From assembly GCA_016882195.1 (NCBI GenBank), contig VGLU01000009.1, positions 1-50,277 on the forward strand: a DNA stretch of 50,277 nt, read 5' to 3'. The translations under genes and the position numbers were made by a program. Positions 8,128 through 43,005 of the stretch are shown here, piece after piece; positions within the stretch are counted from its first letter, which is position 1; each line of letters starts with the position of its first letter. The stretch is from Thermoproteota archaeon (lineage in GTDB: Archaea > Thermoproteota > Methanomethylicia > Methanomethylicales > Methanomethylicaceae). The notes beneath the pieces were generated by a model. That model made no database searches and was not told where the DNA came from. It worked only from the letters and a program-made list of their open reading frames with translations.

Positions 8128-10216
8128 AAGAAATATTCTTCAGAAGGTATTTAACGAATCCAAAGGTTCAAGTTCAAGAGATGATTCAGGGAGGAGAACT
8201 CCCATCAACCTCGGAAAATGGGCGCTTGTTTCGTGCCTCATTCTCGTCTTTTTGATGGCGCCCGTGCTATCGATTCAGCCCGTCGCTGCAGGCACCCCAC
8301 CGAATTTGACGATCACGGCAAGCACCCAGACGCTAATTGCCGGGTCCAACAACCAAGTCACATTCACGATAAGGAACATTGGCGAAGATACAGCGAGCCA
8401 GACATTTGTCGCCCTCTCCCTGCCCTCTTCGGCGACCGGCGGATCCTTGATGATCCTGAATGGAAGCGACGGGAAGTGGTACCTCGACAACCTCGGTTCC
8501 TTTGATTACTATTCCATATCTGCCAACATTTACGTAAGCCCCTCTGCGGCAGGCAGCTCCTATCAGCTGACGTTCACCCTAACCTACAACTACTACGGCG
8601 CAAAGACTGAGACCAGAGCCATCGGTGTCAACGTCCCATCCCTCAACGTCACGGGCGCGTCCATTGCTGCCAGCATCGCTCCATACGAACTCGTCCTTGG
8701 TCAGAACAACGTTCTGACGCTAAAGCTGAAGAATATAGGCGACGCCGACGCAGCTTCCGTTACGGCGTCCTTGGTCATGCCCGGTGCGGCGACCGGCTCC
8801 TCTCCCTTATCATTGATCAACAGCGATGGAAGGTGGACATACAACGCCATAAACAAGAACGATGAGGTCTCAATTCCCCTCACCATATACGCTTCGCCTT
8901 CGTCAGCAGGTCAGACTTACCAAGCCACCCTTTCCCTCACCTACTCCGACTACATAAAAGCTAGAACGGATACAAAGTACCTGACGCTCAGCGTCCCCTT
9001 CAACACGTCGCCAGCGGTAAACTTCGAGATAGGACTTGCACCGCAGGATCTGAAGGCGGGGGAGATGAACACGCTCAACATCACCATCAATAACAAGGGC
9101 GACAGCGATGCGACCTACGTTCAGGCGGTTCTAACCATGCCGCCCTCAACGGCAACTGGACTTCCAATGGTGCTTCAGGACTCTGATGGCAGATGGTTCA
9201 TCGACAGGATCAAGGCTGGGGAGCAGATAACACTGCAGGCGAATGTTTACGTCAACCCGGCGTCTGCGGGAATCGCATATCAGTCCTCAGTCTCTTTAAC
9301 ATACTACGACAGCCTCTCCAGGGCCAAGCAGGACAGCCGCTACTTCGGGCTAAATGTCCCCGCCGTCTACGCCCCAACGGCCGTCATTGATGTTGGGATG
9401 AGTAAGATCGAGCTAAAGTCAGGAGGGGACAACTACCTGAACCTGATCGTGAAGAATGATGGTGACGGCATCGCCGACTCCCTTATGGTTTATTTATCGC
9501 TTCCCGCCGTCCAGGGCGCGGCAGCCCCTCTTGCGCTGATCGGGAGCGACGGCAGCTGGTTTCTAGGTAGCCTTGCGCCTGGAGAGGAGCGGACGATCCC
9601 GTTGAATATCTTTGCAACTCCTACAGCCTCGGGATCTGTAATGTCCCTAACGGTTACGGCATCATATACCGACATGAATTACAAGGTCAAGCAGCAGACG
9701 AACTACTTGGGGGTGATCGTCAGGGGCAACGTGGATCTGATAATACTGGGCACGTCGACCTATCCGCCAAAGATCACACCTGGCAAGGCCTTCTCCATTA
9801 CAGTCAATTTTATAAACTTGGGAACCACCACGGCGCAGAGCGTGATTATTACGCCCAACGGCACCGGGGGCGTGCAACCGGTCAGCCTTGACAGGGTCTT
9901 CCTCGGAGATCTCCCGATCAACGTACCGTCGTCCTTCACCTTGACGTACACGGCCACGAACGTGACCAGCGACACCTACGGGGTGAGCTTGGAGTACAGT
10001 TACAAGGACAGCCTGGGCCAGAATCTCATCGGCTATATGGATGTGCCCATGAGGCTCACGATAGACACGAACGCCACGTCTGGATCCAACGAACAGGGAC
10101 AGCAGCCATCGCTATTCGGAGCGATAATGTTCTTCCTGCCTCTTGTCGTCGTCTTAGTTGCAGTGATAGTTGCCGTATACCTTTGTAGAAGGCACAGAAA
10201 AAGTGGGTCTCTCTGA
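8120..10216 (+). CDS. Membrane-anchored surface protein with about five CARDB/COG1361-like repeats
   Basis: Large exported protein between an ABC ATPase gene and its permease gene. After a basic N-terminus (residues 1-33) a hydrophobic segment ([18 protein letters not shown]) acts as signal or anchor. Five repeats of about 110 residues follow, sharing LKAGxxNxLxxxIxNxGDxxA, a GSDGxW turn and AxPxxAGxxYQxxxxLTY strands, starting near residues 62, 178, 295, 415 and 535. A C-terminal membrane helix ([20 protein letters not shown]) ends in a basic tail, so the repeats face outside. Such proteins often sit in MacB-like operons and may be the extracytoplasmic adaptor or cargo-gripping part. It overlaps its neighbours by 8 and 1 bp. 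Confidence 0.8.
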
Positions 10217-24666: not shown

Positions 24667-25968
24667 TTACCTTCTCCTCATGAGTAACACTGCCGCGACT
24701 ATGATTCCAACGACCACAACTGCAGCCAAGATGTAGTACAGCGTGTAGTCAGGAGGCAGCGTGACGCTGAACGTCCATGTGGAGGTTGCGGTGTTGCCTG
24801 CCGTGTCCTTTACTGTGAGCTGCACCGTGTGGGCCCCTTCCGCCAGTGTCGCGGAGTACGAGACTCCCGTTGCAGTCACCGTCGTGGGGGTGACGGCAGT
24901 GCCGTCCACTGTCAGAACCACTGAACTGACATTGATAGCAACGTTGTCGGAGTAGGAGGCGCCTATCGTTACAGACGTACTGTCCACGGTTGTACCGTTT
25001 GCCGGTGCCAGCGAGGATATCGTTGGTGCCGTGGTGTCCACAGCGAAGGTCCAGCTGGAGGTGGCTACGTTGTTCGATGTGTCCTTTACTGTGAGGGAGA
25101 CGGTGTGCGTGCCCTCGGTCAGTGTTGCGGAGTAGCTCACAGCAGTTGCTGTGACCGTTGTGGGCGTGACTGCTACCCCGTCCACCGTCAGTACCACTGA
25201 ACTGACATTGATAGCAACGTTGTCGGAGTAGGACGCACCTATGCTCACCGATGTGCTTGCAGAGATGGTTCCGTCTGCTGGCGTTAGACCAGATATTACT
25301 GGTGCCGTTGTATCTATTGTTATTGTAAAGGTCCAGGTCATGTTGGCAGAGTTACCTGCGGTGTCCTTGACCTCGAAGTAGACTGTGTGGCTCCCCTGTG
25401 AGAGATCGGCCGCCGGCGTGTACTGAGTTGCGGTGGCTGTAACCGTAGCGCTGGCGGTCACGTCGGCTCCATCCACGGTAAGCTTCGCACTGGTGGTGTT
25501 TATTGCCACGTTGTCAGAGTAGCTCACGGTTATAGTCGGTCTTGCAGTGGTGACGGTAGAATCTGCTGCCGGAGTCACAGACGATATTACCGGTGCAGTT
25601 GTGTCGGCCGCGGCTTGGAGAGTAAAGGTTGCATTGATGGCCTCGCCTCCCGAGAACGCCCTTACCGTGTAAGTCCCGTATGACCATGCACCCGTAGGGA
25701 TGGTCGACGGTATTGCAAATGACTTAGAGTAAGAGCCGTCCGCACCTGCAGTAAAGTAGTCAATTGCGATCATTGAACCCAATGGGTTATATATCTGGAT
25801 GGTTACGTCCGCAGCGGCGGTCGCCGTTCCAGTAACAGTTATGCTCTCGCCTGGGTTGTAGGTAGGCTTGTTGGTATTAACAGTTAGTGGAGAGGCTGAG
25901 GTGATCGCTATAGTAGCCCCAATCAGAAGGATCAGCATCACTAAGACTGTAGCTTTTTTACAAGACAT
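24667..25968 (-). CDS. Membrane-anchored surface protein with Ig-like (Big) repeats
   Basis: Exported protein of 433 residues. An N-terminal signal peptide (ATVLVMLILLIGATIAITSA) is followed by an MG2/CARDB-like domain (VNTNKPTYNPGESITVTGTA, to about residue 120). Three tandem Ig-like repeats of 90-odd residues come next, each opening DTTAPxISxLxPAxGT and containing SYSDNVAIN, LTVDG and a HTVxxxVKDTxxN-W strand. A C-terminal helix (LYYILAAVVVVGIIVAAVLL) with an RRR stop-transfer anchors it. Repeats two and three share a 41-bp identical DNA block, showing recent duplication or conversion. Likely cell-surface adhesion or envelope protein. TATA at 26002-26013. Confidence 0.85.
   Translation of the reverse strand: MSCKKATVLVMLILLIGATIAITSASPLTVNTNKPTYNPGESITVTGTATAAADVTIQIYNPLGSMIAIDYFTAGADGSYSKSFAIPSTIPTGAWSYGTYTVRAFSGGEAINATFTLQAAADTTAPVISSVTPAADSTVTTARPTITVSYSDNVAINTTSAKLTVDGADVTASATVTATATQYTPAADLSQGSHTVYFEVKDTAGNSANMTWTFTITIDTTAPVISGLTPADGTISASTSVSIGASYSDNVAINVSSVVLTVDGVAVTPTTVTATAVSYSATLTEGTHTVSLTVKDTSNNVATSSWTFAVDTTAPTISSLAPANGTTVDSTSVTIGASYSDNVAINVSSVVLTVDGTAVTPTTVTATGVSYSATLAEGAHTVQLTVKDTAGNTATSTWTFSVTLPPDYTLYYILAAVVVVGIIVAAVLLMRRR
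24917..24957. repeat. 41-bp identical repeat, copy 1 (inside Ig-repeat gene)
   Basis: Exactly identical to 25193-25233, offset 276 bp (92 codons). It encodes the YSDNVAINVSSVV strand of Ig repeats two and three. Identity at synonymous sites implies recent duplication or gene conversion. Confidence 0.85.
25193..25233. repeat. 41-bp identical repeat, copy 2 (inside Ig-repeat gene)
   Basis: Second copy of the block at 24917-24957, in the preceding Ig repeat of the same gene. Confidence 0.85.
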
Positions 25969-35660: not shown

Positions 35661-36923
35661 TCACTGCCCGAAGGGGTGGCCCTTTTTCAGGATACTCTTT
35701 TTGATCTCCTCATGCTTGGGTGCGAGGTACCCCTTCCTGATCAGCCGCTGTTTAAGGTGCTCGACCATCTTCGGGACGTCAATATCGACGGGGCACGTCT
35801 CCTTGCACTTTGCGCACTTCGTGCACGCATCCGCCGCGGCTGCGGCGTTCTCCTCCCCTGCTGTAAAGGCGCTCCATATTATCCCGATCCCGCCGAAGTA
35901 GTTGTGTCCGAAGGACCCACCCAGCACCCGGTAGACCGGGCACTCGTACATGCACCCGCCACACCTCAAACAGTAAAGGGCTTCCCTGAAGACAGGATCC
36001 TTAAACATCTCAGTCCGACCGTTGTCCATGAAGATAACGTGTAATTCTTTTGGACCGTGGGCGCCGTATACAAGGGTCTTCTCAATGTCTGCGGTCCTGC
36101 TTGGGCTGGTTATCATCGAAACGTAGGCGGACATGAGGATGCCGGTGGCGTAGGGCGGCAGGACCTGAACCACCTTGAATGCGTCCGATAGAGTGGGAAC
36201 CACCTTATCGATACCGGTGACGCATATATGAACTGGGGGCGCGTTGCTGACGAACCGCGCGTTCCCCTCGTTCTCTATCACGAATAATGTGCCGGTGTTC
36301 GCCGCCACCACGTTGGCACCGGTTATTCCCACGTCCGCGGTGCAGAACTTGTCCCTCAGGAACTCCCTAGCGACCCCCACTAGCGTAGGGATATCAGCCC
36401 CGACCCTCCTCCCAACGAGCTTAGAGAAGGTCTTCGCCACCTCCTCCTTCGGGACATGCACCGCCGGGTTGAGGAGGTGGGTCGGCTTCTCCTTTCTTAG
36501 TTGAATAATGAACTCGCCGAGGTCGGTCTCGTACACCCTGTTTCCCTGCTCCTCGAGTAGCTCGTTGAGGAGGATCTCATCGCTCACCAACGACTTCGAC
36601 TTCACCACGAGCTTATCTTCACCGACCAGCTTCGAGAATATCCGCCGTGCCCCCTTGGCGTCCTTTGCGAGGTAGGCGTGCCCGTGAACCAACTCTATGT
36701 TCTCCATCGCCCCCTTCACGAGATCCTGCATTGATTCAATTGACCTCTCCTTTATCTTGCGGACCTCCTTGCGGATCTGCTCGAGCTCCGGAAGGGTGGC
36801 AAGCGCGTACTCCCTCGCCGCCCTGTAAGCCGTTATCGCCCTGTCAAGCCCCATCCGCCTGTCCTCGTCCGTCATCCAGCTTTTGAACTCCTTCCTCTTC
36901 GATTTTAACCATGCAGGATCCAT
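35661..36923 (-). CDS. LutB/YkgF-like LUD-domain iron-sulfur protein
   Basis: The N-terminal LUD domain (residues 60-300) is that of lactate-utilisation proteins, with DVGITGANVVAANTGTLFVIENEGNAR as its central block. Two [4Fe-4S] motifs follow: CLRCGGCMYECPVY (near 313-326) and CTKCAKCKETCPVDI (near 370-384). In Bacillus LutABC oxidises L-lactate; archaeal relatives may use other 2-hydroxyacids. It starts directly after the upstream LutA-like stop codon (TAA then ATG), so the two form a tight operon. No LutC homologue is seen. Partner dehydrogenase and electron acceptor unknown. Confidence 0.88.
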   Translation of the reverse strand: MDPAWLKSKRKEFKSWMTDEDRRMGLDRAITAYRAAREYALATLPELEQIRKEVRKIKERSIESMQDLVKGAMENIELVHGHAYLAKDAKGARRIFSKLVGEDKLVVKSKSLVSDEILLNELLEEQGNRVYETDLGEFIIQLRKEKPTHLLNPAVHVPKEEVAKTFSKLVGRRVGADIPTLVGVAREFLRDKFCTADVGITGANVVAANTGTLFVIENEGNARFVSNAPPVHICVTGIDKVVPTLSDAFKVVQVLPPYATGILMSAYVSMITSPSRTADIEKTLVYGAHGPKELHVIFMDNGRTEMFKDPVFREALYCLRCGGCMYECPVYRVLGGSFGHNYFGGIGIIWSAFTAGEENAAAAADACTKCAKCKETCPVDIDVPKMVEHLKQRLIRKGYLAPKHEEIKKSILKKGHPFGQ

Positions 36924-37637
36924 TTAGGACTCCCTCCAAGCCCTGAGGAGAAATTCAGGGAGATCTATTACCTCTACTTTGGAGCCGCCCACCTCCTTAA
37001 AGTTGTAGTTGCAGAATGGGCATGAGGTGATGATGATGTCCACACCCTCGGGGCGGTCGTTTAATACTGTTTTGGCGACCTCCAGCGCGATCTCCGGGAA
37101 GACGGAGTGGACCCCGCCGCCGGAACCGCAACATATCGACTTGCCCCTATTGTACTTGAACTCGACCAGCTCCACGCCTGGCACGAGCTTAACGAGTTCA
37201 CGGGGCTCCTTGTAGACGCCCATGTGCCTGCCGAGGTGGCACGGGTCGTGGTACACTACTTTTACTTTTATGGGCTTCAGGTGCTGCTTTAGCTCCTTAG
37301 AGTGATCGAAAAGGAACTGTGAGATATGTCGAACCCTGAAGGGAACATCACCCACGAGTACATGGTACTCGCTGGACATGGTTCTGAAGCACCCGGGGCA
37401 GCTCGTGACGACCTCGCGGTAGCCCTTTGATTTGATATGATCGGCAGTCCTCTTGGCGACCGTCTTTGCATCCTCCACCTGGCCAGTTCTCAGAAGCACT
37501 GACCCGCAGCACCCCTCGTCGTCAAGGGTCTCGTACTCAATGCCGAGCCGGCGAAGCAACTCCTCGGTGGCGTCTGCAATGCTCTTCGTCCTGAGCCGGG
37601 ACATGCAACCCCGCCAGTAGAGGATCTTGCCGGACAT
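36924..37637 (-). CDS. LutA/HdrB-like CCG-domain iron-sulfur protein
   Basis: Two cysteine-rich CCG domains. The first has WRGCMSR, DEGCCGSVLLRTG and SCPGCFRTM. The second has YHDPCHLGRHMG, SICCGSGGGVHSVF and SCPFCNYNF. Such domains bind noncubane or [4Fe-4S] clusters for electron transfer or disulfide/hydroxyacid chemistry, as in LutA, GlpC, GlcF and HdrB. At 237 residues it matches LutA. The downstream gene is LutB-like. Its promoter and first five codons are duplicated 1.8 kb away on the far side of the restriction-modification island. Confidence 0.9.
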   Translation of the reverse strand: MSGKILYWRGCMSRLRTKSIADATEELLRRLGIEYETLDDEGCCGSVLLRTGQVEDAKTVAKRTADHIKSKGYREVVTSCPGCFRTMSSEYHVLVGDVPFRVRHISQFLFDHSKELKQHLKPIKVKVVYHDPCHLGRHMGVYKEPRELVKLVPGVELVEFKYNRGKSICCGSGGGVHSVFPEIALEVAKTVLNDRPEGVDIIITSCPFCNYNFKEVGGSKVEVIDLPEFLLRAWRES

Positions 37638-37686
37638 AACGATCAGACCTTATTATCTCTGAGAGGGTAGTATTAAAACGTAATTA
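37626..37686. repeat. 61-bp direct repeat, left copy (lutA-like promoter and first codons)
   Basis: Matches 39445-39505 at 54 of 61 positions by my count, in the same orientation 1,819 bp away. This copy covers the first four codons of the LutA-like gene and its upstream promoter. The right-most 23 bp are identical in both copies. It forms the left boundary of the restriction-modification island. Confidence 0.8.
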
Positions 37687-37755
37687 GGAGTTTTTATTGA
37701 GTAGGTATTAAATAGGTTATTTTTACTATAGGATATTATAATTAGAGGAAAATCC

Positions 37756-38421
37756 ATGACCCGGCTTCATGCACTCTTCGAAGATCAGAGGCTTGTTGAG
37801 AAAGTCCAGCGCAAACTCCCTAATCTCTTTCAGATGGCCGAGATTGAGAGCTCAAGGGCCGGGAAAGTTGGTATGGAAGTTGGTTCGTTGAGAGAGCGCA
37901 TCCTCATCGCTCTTCTTATCTATAAGTTTGGTCCCGACGCTGTTGAAACAAAAATCCCCATAACCAAGAGCCAAGTTGATGTTAGGCTTTTTGGCGAGGC
38001 AATCTCAATTAAAACCATAACAGGTCTCTCTGGCGTCAAGGCAGTATGGACCGTGGATGCAGAAAGCGCAAGACTCTTTTCCAAGAAGTATAAACCTGAA
38101 TGCGAGATCCTTCTAATCCAAGTCAAATGGGACTGCAAGAATCCGAGACCTGAAACAATCCCCGGTAATCCAAGACATCCCGGAGGCCTCTTTCTAATCC
38201 CGCTTGATGCGCAGCTAAAGCTATTTGCATCCTTGGGTAGAGAGAATTATCTGAAACTTCCTAAGCCCGGCACAAACCCGCGAGGGGTTGAATTTTCTAG
38301 GGAGACTGTTATGCGACTTATACAGGACCCTAACTCAAGGTGCATTCCAATCCTGTGGAGAAAGACAAAGGTCGACTACGATCCTTATAAAAGATGGGTG
38401 GACTATTGGTCAGCAGATTAA
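37756..38421 (+). CDS. Candidate type II restriction endonuclease (possibly ThaI-like)
   Basis: A 221-residue protein encoded tail to tail with a DNA methyltransferase, 4 bp apart, as expected for a type II system. Residues 45-62 form a helix with Glu47 (SLRERILIALLIYKFG), then ETKIPITKSQVDVRLFGEAISIKTITG gives a possible PD-(D/E)xK-like centre: Asp75, Glu81, Lys86. A C-terminal GGLFLIPLDAQLKLF segment and aromatic-rich tail follow. It recalls the Thermoplasma ThaI (CGCG) family, but I hold that only weakly. Base composition is clearly more AT-rich than neighbouring genes, suggesting acquisition. ATG at 37756 is preceded by GAGGAAAA. Confidence 0.7.
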   Translation: MTRLHALFEDQRLVEKVQRKLPNLFQMAEIESSRAGKVGMEVGSLRERILIALLIYKFGPDAVETKIPITKSQVDVRLFGEAISIKTITGLSGVKAVWTVDAESARLFSKKYKPECEILLIQVKWDCKNPRPETIPGNPRHPGGLFLIPLDAQLKLFASLGRENYLKLPKPGTNPRGVEFSRETVMRLIQDPNSRCIPILWRKTKVDYDPYKRWVDYWSAD

Positions 38422-38425
38422 CTCG

Positions 38426-39322
38426 TCAAATAAAAGACGGTATCTTTGTCTGGTTGATAAGATCTGCTATCCGTTTCTTTGCTTTTTCAACGTAATCTTG
38501 GCTTATATCAACACAGATGAAGTGCCTGCCAGCCTTTATGGCAGCTATCGCCGTGGTGCCAACGCCGCAGAAAGGATCAAGGACAACCTCATCCTTGAAG
38601 GTATAAAGTTGGATGCACCGGTAAGGCAACTCCACCGGGAATGGGGCAGGGTGTCCTACCTTTTTTGCGGATTCTGGCATGAACTTCCAAACGCTCTTAG
38701 TGTACTCCAAAAACTCTTCACTAGTTATAGTGTCGACCTTGTCCTTCTTACTCCTTGAGAACTTCAATTTAGAGAATATTAGAATATACTCGTGAGTATC
38801 CCTTAGCGTCGGGTTTGAGGCAGAAGACCAACTCCCCCATGCAGTTGAAGTCCCTGCACCTGCCTCTTTGCCCCAGATGATCTCCCCGCGCATTATGAAG
38901 CCGACTTCCTGCATACAGTCGATTATGAACTTGTGGTAAGGGATGTAAGGCTTCCTTCCCACATTGGCAATATTTATACAGGCACGACCTCCTGGAATCA
39001 AAACCCGATAAGTTTCTGCAAAAACCTCCTTCAGTAGGTCGAGGTATGCAGGTAGGTCTAGGTCTTCGTCATAGTCCTTTCCAACGTTATAAGGCGGCGA
39101 AGTAACCATAAGATGCACGCTACTATCCGGAATCATCGAGAGGGATCTGCTGTCTGCACAAATGACTTTATCGAGCACCTCTTGAGGTACGGAATTTTCT
39201 ATTTCTTGCGCCGTTTCGTTGATTTTTGTTTTTGAATATAGTGACCTGCTGTAAAATGGTGACGAATCGTGACCTTCTCTTTTTGAGACCCCAAAGCTCT
39301 TCGTTCTTGTCCCATTACGCAT
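38426..39322 (-). CDS. DNA methyltransferase, TSPPY class (probable N4-cytosine)
   Basis: Modification enzyme of the island. The catalytic motif IV TSPPY is at residues 74-78, before motif I (SAM binding), DPFCGVGTT at about 249-257, giving the beta-class order. TSPPY with this order usually means N4-methylcytosine (some are N6-adenine). After motif IV come GRACINIANVGRKPYIPYH and the HEYILIF block; VDISQDYV is the motif II acidic end. A Ser/Thr-rich stretch (GAGTSTAWGSWSSASNPTLRDTHEY) may be part of target recognition. Length 298 is typical. AT-rich minus-strand TATA (ATTATATATC, about 39349-39358) lies upstream. Faces the nuclease gene. Confidence 0.9.
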   Translation of the reverse strand: MRNGTRTKSFGVSKREGHDSSPFYSRSLYSKTKINETAQEIENSVPQEVLDKVICADSRSLSMIPDSSVHLMVTSPPYNVGKDYDEDLDLPAYLDLLKEVFAETYRVLIPGGRACINIANVGRKPYIPYHKFIIDCMQEVGFIMRGEIIWGKEAGAGTSTAWGSWSSASNPTLRDTHEYILIFSKLKFSRSKKDKVDTITSEEFLEYTKSVWKFMPESAKKVGHPAPFPVELPYRCIQLYTFKDEVVLDPFCGVGTTAIAAIKAGRHFICVDISQDYVEKAKKRIADLINQTKIPSFI

Positions 39323-39444
39323 AATTCTCGTTATTAATAGGATCAGATATATAATTAATACTTGTTGGAAATTAGCTCCACGAACTTGCTTTCGTTAGTA
39401 AAGGTTGGAGACGGAAGACCCTGTGCTTTTTCACCTTAACACTC

Positions 39445-39505
39445 CTTGCCAGACATGGTGATCAGACCCTATAATCTCTGAAAGGGTAGTATTAAAACGT
39501 AATTA
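39445..39505. repeat. 61-bp direct repeat, right copy (relic lutA promoter)
   Basis: On the minus strand this copy still begins ATG TCT GGC AAG, the first codons of the LutA-like gene, but runs into TAA after six codons (MSGKEC). The adjoining promoter sequence is nearly the same as the functional copy at 37626-37686. It marks the right boundary of the island and the ancestral junction. Confidence 0.8.
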
Positions 39506-39588
39506 ATAAGCCCAGCATTGATGCAATTTCTGATAACACAATAGAAATATAAATTTTGGAACAACGTACTTGTTTGAGACGGTTTGTC

Positions 39589-39780
39589 ATGACATGCTAT
39601 TTCAGGCATCTACAACAGACCTTCAAGAAGGCAGGAATTGAGGTTACAAAGGAGAACAAACGCAAAATTGACACAATGATTCATAAGATCGTGGGTGTAG
39701 GATACAAGAACTGTCCTGCCGCTTGGAGAGAGGTAAAGAGGAGAATAGTAGAGGACGAGGAAAGTTTTGCTCTAAGCTAA
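39589..39780 (+). CDS. Small conserved-looking archaeal protein, 63 aa
   Basis: Begins MTCYFRHLQQTFKKAGIEVTKENKRKIDTMIHKIVGVGYKNCPAAWREVKRRI and ends with an acidic tail. The even charge pattern and the CYFRH...YKNCPAAW motif, with two Cys and one His, suggest a conserved helical, possibly metal-binding, family that I recall from archaeal genomes but cannot name. The ATG at 39589 fits better than earlier in-frame starts at 39556. It is the first gene right of the island; before the insertion it would have been divergent from the LutA-like gene. Function unknown. Confidence 0.65.
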   Translation: MTCYFRHLQQTFKKAGIEVTKENKRKIDTMIHKIVGVGYKNCPAAWREVKRRIVEDEESFALS

Positions 39781-39833
39781 AAAGAGAATGGGGCAGACAA
39801 GAATGGCTAGAACAGATGGAAAGTGAGACCTAT

Positions 39834-40406
39834 ATGAAAGCGTTGATTTTGAACGGTTCAAGAAAGGGCGACAGGTTTCTTGATGCTGCATCTGATGTCT
39901 TGTCCCATACGCTGAAGGGTGCAGGTTACGAGGTTGACCCTCTCATCCTTCGCGACCTAAAGATCGCAAGCTGCAAGGGCTGCTTCGACTGCTGGGTAAA
40001 GACCCCCGGCGTCTGCTCAACCGACGATGAAGGGCGCCTCGTGCCAATGAAGATGATGCAGAGCGACCTGATGATCTACCTTACACCCATAATCATCGGC
40101 GGGTTCTCGTCTGAGCTCAAGAAGGGCCTCGACAGGATCACCGGCGCCCTCCTTCCCTTCTTGACGAATGTCAACGGTGAAATCCACCACCCCTTTCGCT
40201 ACAAAAAATACCCAAAGATACTGGGCATCGGCATCCTCCCCCAGCCGGACGAGGAGGCAGAGAGGATCTTCAGAACCCTCGTGAACCGCAACGCCCTGAA
40301 CATCCACGACAAAGGTCACTCCACCGTCGTTTACCGCAACGACAGCCACGAAAGGGTAGCCGAGAAGATTAAGGCCCTATTGGCAGAGGCAGGCGCTGCA
40401 AAATGA
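39834..40406 (+). CDS. NADPH-dependent FMN reductase-like flavoprotein (Cys-rich)
   Basis: Flavodoxin-fold protein of 190 residues. KALILNGSRKGDRF is the FMN phosphate loop. CKGCFDCWVKTPGVCSTDDE supplies a four-Cys block like that of iron-sulfur flavoproteins (CxxCxxC...C), which bind a [4Fe-4S] cluster beside FMN. DLMIYLTPIIIGGFSSELKKGLDR follows as in the family. The ATG at 39834 starts the fold properly; the frame is open earlier. It overlaps the next flavoprotein gene by 4 bp (ATGA), so the two are translated together, likely as partners in electron transfer. Confidence 0.87.
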   Translation: MKALILNGSRKGDRFLDAASDVLSHTLKGAGYEVDPLILRDLKIASCKGCFDCWVKTPGVCSTDDEGRLVPMKMMQSDLMIYLTPIIIGGFSSELKKGLDRITGALLPFLTNVNGEIHHPFRYKKYPKILGIGILPQPDEEAERIFRTLVNRNALNIHDKGHSTVVYRNDSHERVAEKIKALLAEAGAAK

Positions 40407-41080
40407 GCTCCCCCAAGAAGGCACTGCTCCTGGTCGGTAGCCCCCGCGGAAGAGACAGCTCCTCGGAGGCTTTGGGAGGGTACCTGCTCAACAGGCTCAA
40501 GGAGCACGGTATGGAGACGGGAAAGGTATACATCCACCCGTCCATGCTTACCGAGAGGGGTCAGGCGGAGATGCTACAAGCCATCGACCGGTCCGACCTA
40601 CTGATACTTGCCTTCCCCCTATACGTGGACAGCCTCCCCGCGCCGGTCATAGCCGCCCTTGAGACCATCGCCGAGCACCGGAGGACCAAGGTGCGTAAGG
40701 AGCAGAAGCTCGTCGCAATAACAAACTCCGGATTCCCCGAGGCTTCCCAGATGGACACAGCCCTTGCGATCTGCCGCAGGTTTGCCTCCGAGACCAAGAT
40801 CGGGTGGGCTGGAGGGCTGGCTATCGGCGGTGGCGAGGCTTTACACGGCAGGTCGCTCGCGGAGGCAGGATGGATGGCGCGGAACCCGAGGAAAGCCCTT
40901 GACATGGCGGCCACGGCGCTGGCAGAGGACAGGCCCGTCCCGAAGGAGACCGTCGATATAGCGGCAAAGCCACTGATCCCGCGGTGGATGTACGTGTTCG
41001 TGGCCAACCGGTGGTTTAAGAACGAAGCGAAGAAGAACGGCGCGCAGGATAAGCTGTACGATCGACCTTACCAAGCATAG
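40403..41080 (+). CDS. Flavodoxin-fold NAD(P)H-dependent reductase
   Basis: Second flavodoxin-like protein of the pair, 225 residues. KKALLLVGSPRGRDSSSEALGGYLL is the FMN-binding loop, and LLILAFPLYVDSLPAPVIAALE the ring-stacking region. It lacks the Cys block of its partner and has a longer C-terminus (about 170-225) with a helix and basic residues (WMYVFVANRWFKNEAKKN), possibly membrane-associated. The start overlaps the preceding stop (ATGA). Substrate unknown. Confidence 0.85.
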   Translation: MSSPKKALLLVGSPRGRDSSSEALGGYLLNRLKEHGMETGKVYIHPSMLTERGQAEMLQAIDRSDLLILAFPLYVDSLPAPVIAALETIAEHRRTKVRKEQKLVAITNSGFPEASQMDTALAICRRFASETKIGWAGGLAIGGGEALHGRSLAEAGWMARNPRKALDMAATALAEDRPVPKETVDIAAKPLIPRWMYVFVANRWFKNEAKKNGAQDKLYDRPYQA

Positions 41081-41113
41081 CCTACAAGGACGGAGTGATT
41101 CGGGGAAAACCCA

Positions 41114-41144
41114 AACTAAGAAATTCTTAAATAACTAAGAAATT
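41114..41144 (+). promoter_or_regulatory. VapBC promoter with palindrome and direct repeat
   Basis: AACTAAGAAATT occurs at 41114-41125 and again at 41133-41144 (19 bp offset). TAAGAAATTCTTA at 41118-41130 is a perfect inverted repeat about a central A. The TATA-like CTTAAATA (41127-41134) overlaps both. This is the layout of a site bound by an AbrB-type antitoxin to repress its own operon (inference). Confidence 0.5.
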
Positions 41145-41174
41145 ATTAGATATGTGGATGAATAGGTGGTAAAG

Positions 41175-41450
41175 ATGGCAGAGACCTACGTCTGCAAGGT
41201 CACCTCTGTTGGCCAGATAACCCTTCCCAAGGAGGTAAGGGAGGAGCTGGAGGTGGGAGAGGAAGACTTCATCGTCCTAGAGAAGGTCGGTCAGACCTAC
41301 TTCCTCAGAAAGGTAGGCGTGGACAAAGCCCTCCTGAAACGGGTCCGCGAGAGGGTGAGGAAGAGTGGGATAACGAAGGAGAGGCTATCCGAGATAGTGG
41401 AAGAGGTATCCGAGGACGCGTGGAGAAAGACGTATGAAGGCGTTCGTTGA
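41175..41450 (+). CDS. vapB: AbrB/SpoVT-type antitoxin (VapB)
   Basis: Residues 4-48 are a swapped-hairpin AbrB DNA-binding domain: YVCKVTSVGQITLPKEVREELEVGEEDFIVLEKVGQTYFL. The C-terminal helix (LLKRVRERVRKSGITKERLSEIVEEVSEDAWRK) would wrap the toxin. The ATG at 41175 has AGGTGG 6 nt before it. The gene overlaps the PIN-domain toxin gene by 17 bp, the usual VapBC arrangement. Likely represses its own operon through the palindrome at 41118-41130. Confidence 0.88.
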   Translation: MAETYVCKVTSVGQITLPKEVREELEVGEEDFIVLEKVGQTYFLRKVGVDKALLKRVRERVRKSGITKERLSEIVEEVSEDAWRKTYEGVR

Positions 41451-41871
41451 TGCCAATACCATCTTGAGCGGGCTTCTCTTCGCCGGAAATGATGCCATCC
41501 TTCTCGAGCTCGGTAGACTGGGGGCCGTTTGTCTGATAACGAACCAGTATGTTCTTGGCGAAGTTAGGAAAGTTCTCAAGAGGAAGGAGTTCCGGCTCGC
41601 CGAGGAGGAACAGCTCCGTTTGATGAGATACGTTATGGAGTGTATCTCGATTGTTGGGGATCCCAAAGCTGAAGAGATAAGGAAACACTACGACCTGCTG
41701 AGAGACAGGAAGGATCTGCCAGTGGTTGTTGGTGTAAAAAAGGAAGGCTGCGATTATCTGATCACGGGCGATAAGGAACTCCTCTCAGAGAAGGTTAAGA
41801 GATTCGCAAATTCGATCACGACATCAGAACTGCTGGGAGCGCTGATCGAGGAAAAATTCCTAAAGCTTTGA
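41434..41871 (+). CDS. vapC: PIN-domain ribonuclease toxin (VapC)
   Basis: PIN ribonuclease of 145 residues. Acidic active-site residues are in place: Asp6 in KAFVDANTILSG, Glu in VLGEVRKVLKR (near 44), Asp near 90 in LRDRKDLPVVVGV and Asp in YLITGDKELL (near 110). The C-terminus matches the PIN_3 subgroup. VapC enzymes cleave tRNA or rRNA and are held inactive by VapB. The ATG sits within the antitoxin gene, 17 bp before its stop. No anomaly seen. Confidence 0.9.
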   Translation: MKAFVDANTILSGLLFAGNDAILLELGRLGAVCLITNQYVLGEVRKVLKRKEFRLAEEEQLRLMRYVMECISIVGDPKAEEIRKHYDLLRDRKDLPVVVGVKKEGCDYLITGDKELLSEKVKRFANSITTSELLGALIEEKFLKL

Positions 41872-41874
41872 GCG

Positions 41875-43005
41875 CTAGAACTTAAAGAACCCGTGCCTAC
41901 TCGCCTTTACGTTCTCGCCGGACTCCTTTGCCAGCTCCTCCAGTAGTGCCCTCTGCTTTGAGGTGAGCTTTGTGGGAACCGCAACATTCACCCGAACCAT
42001 CAAATTCCCTCTGCCGTAGCCCTCGAGCTTCGGCATGCCCTTCCCCTTAAGCCTAAGGATCTGCCCCGGCTGGGTCCCCGGATGAACCGTTACCGTAACG
42101 TCCCCCTCCAGTGTGGGCACGGTTACCTCGGTCCCGAGCGCCGCCTGCGCGAACCCGATTGGGAGGTCGTAATACAGGTCGGCACCGTCCCGCTTGAAGT
42201 GCCGGTGCGGCTCCACGTGTATCTGCACGTAGAGGTCCCCTGGGGGCCCACCGCTCTGCGACGCCTCCCCCTCGCCCCTCAACCTCAACTGGGATCCCTC
42301 GTCCACGCCAGCGGGTATCTTCACCGTGATCCTCCTTCTCCTCCTAACAACGCCGGATCCGCGGCACTCCCTGCATGGCGACTCGATGGTCGTCCCCGCA
42401 CCTCTGCATGTCGGGCACGGTCCAACGGAAACGAACCTTGCGAACCCGCTACTTCGGACTGTTTGGATCTGCCCCGTCCCTCCACACCTGTTGCAGGTCT
42501 TTGGCGATGTTCCTGGGGCGGCACCCGTCCCCCCGCAGACATTGCACCGCTCGGTTCTCGGCACCTCTATCTCCTCCTCCACACCACGGAAGGCCTCCTC
42601 CAGCGTTACCTCCAACTCGTAGCCTAGGTCGTTGCCCCTCATTACCCGCCTTCCGCCGTAGCCGCGCCCTCCTCCAAAGAACATCTCAAAGATGTTGCCG
42701 AGGTCGAACCCGAAACCCAGATCCCTGAATATGGACTCAAAATCGGCGCCCCTGAAGATGTCCTCCTGGGTGTACTGCTGGCCGAAGTCCACCCTGCCAA
42801 GCATGTCGTACTGCTGTCGCTTATCATCGTCCGATAGAACCGCGTAGGCCTCGGATATCTCCTTGAACTTCTCCTCTGCGCCGGGAGACTTGTTACGGTC
42901 TGGATGGTACTGCAGGGCCAGCTTCCTGTAGGCGTCCTTTATCTCGTCCTTATTCGCGGTTTTGGGGACGCCCAGAACCTCGTAGTAGTCCCTCTTGCCG
43001 GCCAT
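41875..43005 (-). CDS. dnaJ: Chaperone DnaJ (Hsp40)
   Basis: Co-chaperone that stimulates DnaK ATPase and delivers clients. The N-terminal J domain has YHPDRNKS with the HPD tripeptide. A Gly/Phe-rich linker near residues 95-115 ([17 protein letters not shown]) follows. The zinc-binding region has four CxxCxGxG-type repeats ([32 protein letters not shown]). The C-terminal substrate domains are complete. 376 residues, normal. Downstream of dnaK with 92 bp between; third gene of grpE-dnaK-dnaJ. This bacterial-type triad is patchily distributed in archaea and is thought to have been acquired from bacteria. Confidence 0.97.

Follow-up and report, generated by a model that had tools for sequence, protein, structure and literature searches.

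This locus raises the question of how a restriction-modification gene pair came to lie between two copies of the promoter of the adjacent Fe-S protein gene. A repeat search of the window, i.e. the whole stretch of 50,277 nucleotides that was analysed, returned a direct pair with a length of 61 nt, 54/61 identical positions (89%) and a spacing of 1819 at 37626-37686 and 39445-39505, exactly where an earlier, sequence-only reading of this DNA had placed it. Both ends of the repeat are sharp, with similarity dropping off abruptly at either boundary. A search of the whole genome (1.45 Mb) found the repeat twice, at these two sites alone. A simple binomial estimate put the probability of its occurrence by chance at about 1e-23 for one alignment and at about 1e-14 for the whole window, and the observed repeat score was 40 compared to 13 or less in flank-versus-flank nulls. 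The sole longer direct pair in the whole window is a 270-nt tandem repeat with 73% identity at 24769-25314, which may reflect the duplication of a domain or of part of a gene.

The repeat carries, in sense orientation, a TATA-like box, a start region, the motif TCTGAT, the ATG and the MSGK codons of lutA. This gene (36924-37637, minus strand) codes for a LutA-like cysteine-rich (CCG) Fe-S protein (PF02754, E=1.9e-39) and is followed by a gene for a LutB-like Fe-S/LUD protein (35661-36923, minus strand; PF02589, E=2.4e-54; TIGR00273 below cut-off). The left copy (37626-37686, minus strand) consists of the lutA core promoter, the start codon and codons 1-4 (MSGK), with TTTAATA at 37671-37677, TCTGAT at 37642-37647 and ATG at 37635-37637, and is thus the promoter and first codons of lutA, as had been proposed. 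The right copy (39445-39505, minus strand) contains the same promoter and MSGK codons, with TTTAATA at 39490-39496 and ATG at 39454-39456. It reads ATG-TCT-GGC-AAG-GAG-TGT-TAA, in agreement with the proposed MSGKEC followed by a stop, and the frame closes at 39436. Because the two copies share the minus-strand orientation, the right one is directed inward, toward the methyltransferase gene, and the suggestion that it drives the genes to its right had to be abandoned.

The inserted segment between the repeats (37687-39444, 1758 bp) contains two genes and no other. One, on the plus strand (37756-38421), codes for an intact ThaI-family type II restriction endonuclease of 221 aa (Pfam PF15514, E=9e-78; PADLOC REase_II, E=3.5e-69) that, in an alignment with 14 homologues, keeps the conserved, catalytic-type E, VDV and IKT positions. 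The other, on the minus strand (38426-39322), codes for the intact cognate DNA methyltransferase of 298 aa with a TSPPYN motif (Pfam PF01555, E=6.5e-49; PADLOC MTase_II, E=1e-129). An endonuclease of the PF15514 family with these positions conserved and a methyltransferase next to it identify the pair as a ThaI-family type II restriction-modification system and bear out the earlier assignment. The two genes are convergent (tail to tail), each behind its own TATA-like, putative promoter. The candidate box of the methyltransferase gene, TATTAATTATATA (39348-39360, minus strand), lies 25 nt before the ATG, and a similar box, TATTAATTTATAC, is found at nearly equal distance from the ATG of the methyltransferase gene in a relative of the same family, G021. 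The methyltransferase of the window is 82% and 80% identical to those of G015 and G021, respectively, and its nearest homologues are from Bathyarchaeota, Jordarchaeum and Hecatella. Together with the promoter type and a weak match to an Hjc-like resolvase, these homologues suggest that the DNA is archaeal.

With regard to base composition, the AT-rich interior that had been noted was confirmed: the G+C content is 44.7% between the repeats compared to 56.8% in lutBA and 60.7% in dnaJ, and the adjoining 0.3 kb on the right-hand side of the right copy are likewise AT-rich (40.4% G+C). The description of the island as lacking a transposase, an integrase and terminal inverted repeats also stood, as no gene for either enzyme is present in 37687-39444 and the island ends, with a score of 8 compared to a null mean of 8, contain no terminal inverted repeats. 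An Rfam search of 36000-42000 returned no RNA family, and no tRNA genes, sought as an attachment site, were found in the window. Avoidance of CGCG was not distinctive, with an observed/expected ratio of 0.77 in the window and 0.56-0.88 in the other family loci measured, most of which are from genomes without the ThaI-type system. GGCC was strongly under-represented (observed/expected 0.26-0.62) in the window and the loci of relatives L050, L051 and L053-L056, and in most of these sequences its depletion exceeds that of CGCG.

The state of the locus before the insertion can be deduced from relatives, where the gene order is grpE-dnaK-dnaJ-lutA-lutB. In the window, the ancestral upstream neighbour dnaJ is located at 41875-43005 (minus strand; TIGR02349, E=3e-135). 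The gap between the dnaJ and lutA ORFs is 42-116 bp in G001, G004, G013 and G021, and it holds an unrelated 1.9-kb insert in G003. The core-promoter pattern occurs in two copies in this genome and in one copy, at lutA, in 12 of 40 relatives, with one extra match, in G006, away from lutA; the relatives with a single copy belong to other genera, the comparison containing no cassette-free genome of the same genus. Since lutA directly follows dnaJ in relatives and has one promoter there, the ancestral locus had one promoter separating dnaJ from lutA. These data support the view that the island is an insertion and the repeat a duplicated lutA promoter. The predicted empty junction between lutA and the gene at 39589 was not found; the corresponding junction in relatives is lutA-dnaJ. 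Ten of the relatives (G001, G004, G007, G009, G012, G014, G017, G018, G019 and G021) share a strongly conserved TATA-to-ATG stretch upstream of lutA that ends with TCTGATNNNNATG, has a fixed spacing and occurs only at lutA, possibly as a specific regulatory or leader signal.

The 2.4 kb between the right copy and dnaJ (39506-41874) form a second lineage-specific block that is absent from the dnaJ-lutA gap of relatives. It contains a small ORF, two flavodoxin/FMN-reductase-like genes and a toxin-antitoxin-like AbrB/PIN pair. No counterpart of the flavodoxin-like protein encoded at 40403-41080 was found in 22 relatives; the small ORF (63-74 aa) has weak homologues elsewhere and no better ones. 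The presence of this block beside the right copy indicates that this junction received insertions more than once and, together with the different 1.9-kb insert in G003, makes the dnaJ-lutA junction look like an insertion hot spot.

The same cassette is found elsewhere. In G021, the same convergent pair, with 66% and 80% identity, is located at another locus beside tRNA-Ala, and the dnaJ-lutA junction of this genome is empty. A tRNA-end repeat was sought on the far side of the G021 cassette and is absent. About 0.5 kb beyond this cassette, a degenerate TnpB/OrfB-like sequence was recognised by eye in the translation (L051, contig C112 of G021, 9180-9600). In G015, a methyltransferase gene (L052, contig C66, 5540-6439) codes for the 82% identical protein mentioned above, and no ThaI relative was found in the genome; since the contig ends 216 bp past this gene, its status as an orphan is uncertain. 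Cassettes homologous to that of the window have a scattered distribution across many phyla of archaea and bacteria, and in more than 20 loci a ThaI homologue is accompanied by a methyltransferase of the same family as here. Flanking direct repeats were sought at about 30 homologous loci (pairs of the ThaI type, related pairs and a single methyltransferase gene for which no ThaI was detected); a few were unusable due to a contig end near the cassette. The approximately 27 other cassettes with usable flanks gave short matches, none of which stood out. Thus, the long duplication belongs to this event, and the idea that the duplication mechanism is encoded by the cassette was rejected as unsupported.

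Based on the observed repeat, the gene content, the single promoter in relatives and the cassette at another locus in a relative, we consider it likely that a mobile, self-contained ThaI-type cassette inserted into the promoter and start region of lutA downstream of dnaJ and duplicated 61 bp of its target. Entry may have occurred via a staggered or end-repaired break or via template-switch repair, with ends 61 bp apart, and the joining would have taken place without a dedicated transposase in the cassette. The duplicated stretch, which includes the TATA box, the start region and the first codons, would have preserved an entire promoter for lutA and would thereby account for the survival of the insertion. 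Judging from its orientation, the right copy could provide extra transcription toward the methyltransferase gene; since this gene has its own TATA-like promoter, the presence of the right copy is more likely incidental than required. The two copies differ at 7/61 positions and are thus not fresh. This divergence counts against the preferred reading, as do the lack of such repeats around the other ThaI-type cassettes examined and the second block beside the right copy. They share 37/43 core positions with each other compared to at most 34/43 for either copy with any relative, so that the duplication most likely postdates the divergence from the genera sampled. A comparison of the seven differences with relatives did not distinguish the older copy.

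The divergence of the copies bears on the alternatives. If DNA from a related organism, as a circle or a fragment, had carried a lutA promoter beside the cassette and had recombined once at the lutA promoter of the host, the repeats would be the alleles of donor and recipient and would have been different from the outset. The 11% divergence is consistent with this homologous capture, as is the fact that such a single-crossover joining requires no transposase. At some of the differing sites, moreover, it is the right copy that resembles the wider family, and at two of them (core positions 37 and 39) the left copy has the bases of the nearest relative, G003, and the right copy those of other genera; these agreements would fit two separate origins as well. 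However, homologous capture requires a donor in which the cassette already lay beside a lutA promoter, and no such donor was found; each copy still has its closest match in the other, and a homology that stops abruptly at 61 bp is short for homologous recombination. We therefore regard this course of events as unlikely.

It is rather improbable that the locus arose in two steps, with the cassette entering upstream of lutA without duplication and the lutA promoter being copied upstream of the methyltransferase gene later on. Such a promoter capture would account for a right copy that faces the methyltransferase gene and has retained its TATA box, start region and ATG, but it requires two events and would have supplied a promoter to a gene already having a TATA-like one of its own, and the orientation follows automatically from any direct-repeat target duplication. 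The 3' side of tRNA genes is a classical integration site in archaea, and the position of the G021 cassette 3' of tRNA-Ala, with the degenerate TnpB-like sequence further downstream, is reminiscent of an insertion by an integrase or transposon in which the 61-bp repeats would have served as attachment sites for a recombinase that was lost or acts in trans. This origin is very improbable given that neither enzyme is encoded between the repeats, that terminal inverted repeats are missing at the island ends, and that neither the far side in G021 nor the other cassettes show the corresponding repeats. As for the wider meaning of the preferred insertion with target duplication, we find it doubtful that promoter-duplicating insertion is a recurrent, selected route by which restriction-modification cassettes settle upstream of host genes; if it were, the host gene would be spared, the methyltransferase gene would be given a host promoter, and protection would be helped to come first on arrival.

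Some restriction-modification systems are known to insert with long, variable target duplications on the order of 100 bp (PMC3874152), and such insertions are also mentioned in PMC3031569 and PMC1643837; as cited in these three papers, the observation goes back to Nobusato et al. 2000 on Helicobacter pylori and was also reported by Furuta et al. 2010. The sequence-only reading was supported as regards a restriction-modification insertion with a duplicated lutA promoter and without transposase, whereas its "undescribed way" of settling has been in the literature since 2000 and, like the rightward promoter and the lutA-39589 junction, did not hold. Since the insertion pattern had already been described for such gene pairs from bacteria, our finding is an archaeal case of a known kind and not a new mechanism. 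It widens the range of long-duplication insertions of restriction-modification genes to include an uncultured archaeal lineage; relatives from other genera show the empty junction, and the cassette recurs at a second locus. It further shows how a core promoter can accept an insertion when duplication restores the promoter that was hit.

As far as the insertions of Nobusato et al. 2000 and Furuta et al. 2010 are described in the papers citing them, they resemble the present one in that restriction-modification genes lie between direct repeats of a host target and lack a linked transposase; here, as in that class, the repeats (61 bp, 54/61) flank the ThaI-type endonuclease and methyltransferase genes only. 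On the same descriptions, the present case differs in that the cassette is archaeal and ThaI-type, the target that was duplicated comprises a core promoter plus a start codon, the identity of the copies has fallen to 89%, and the empty site is known from other genera only. Restriction-modification genes also move by IS or composite transposon (PMC3031569); mobility is common to both, but the segment described here contains no IS or transposase and its duplication is 61 bp compared to 4-10 bp. The system itself, known here from sequence alone, resembles the ThaI (CGCG) type II system in its PF15514 endonuclease and adjacent PF01555-type methyltransferase, and it differs from most homologous loci, where the endonuclease gene lies upstream in the same direction, by the convergent gene order that it shares with G021.
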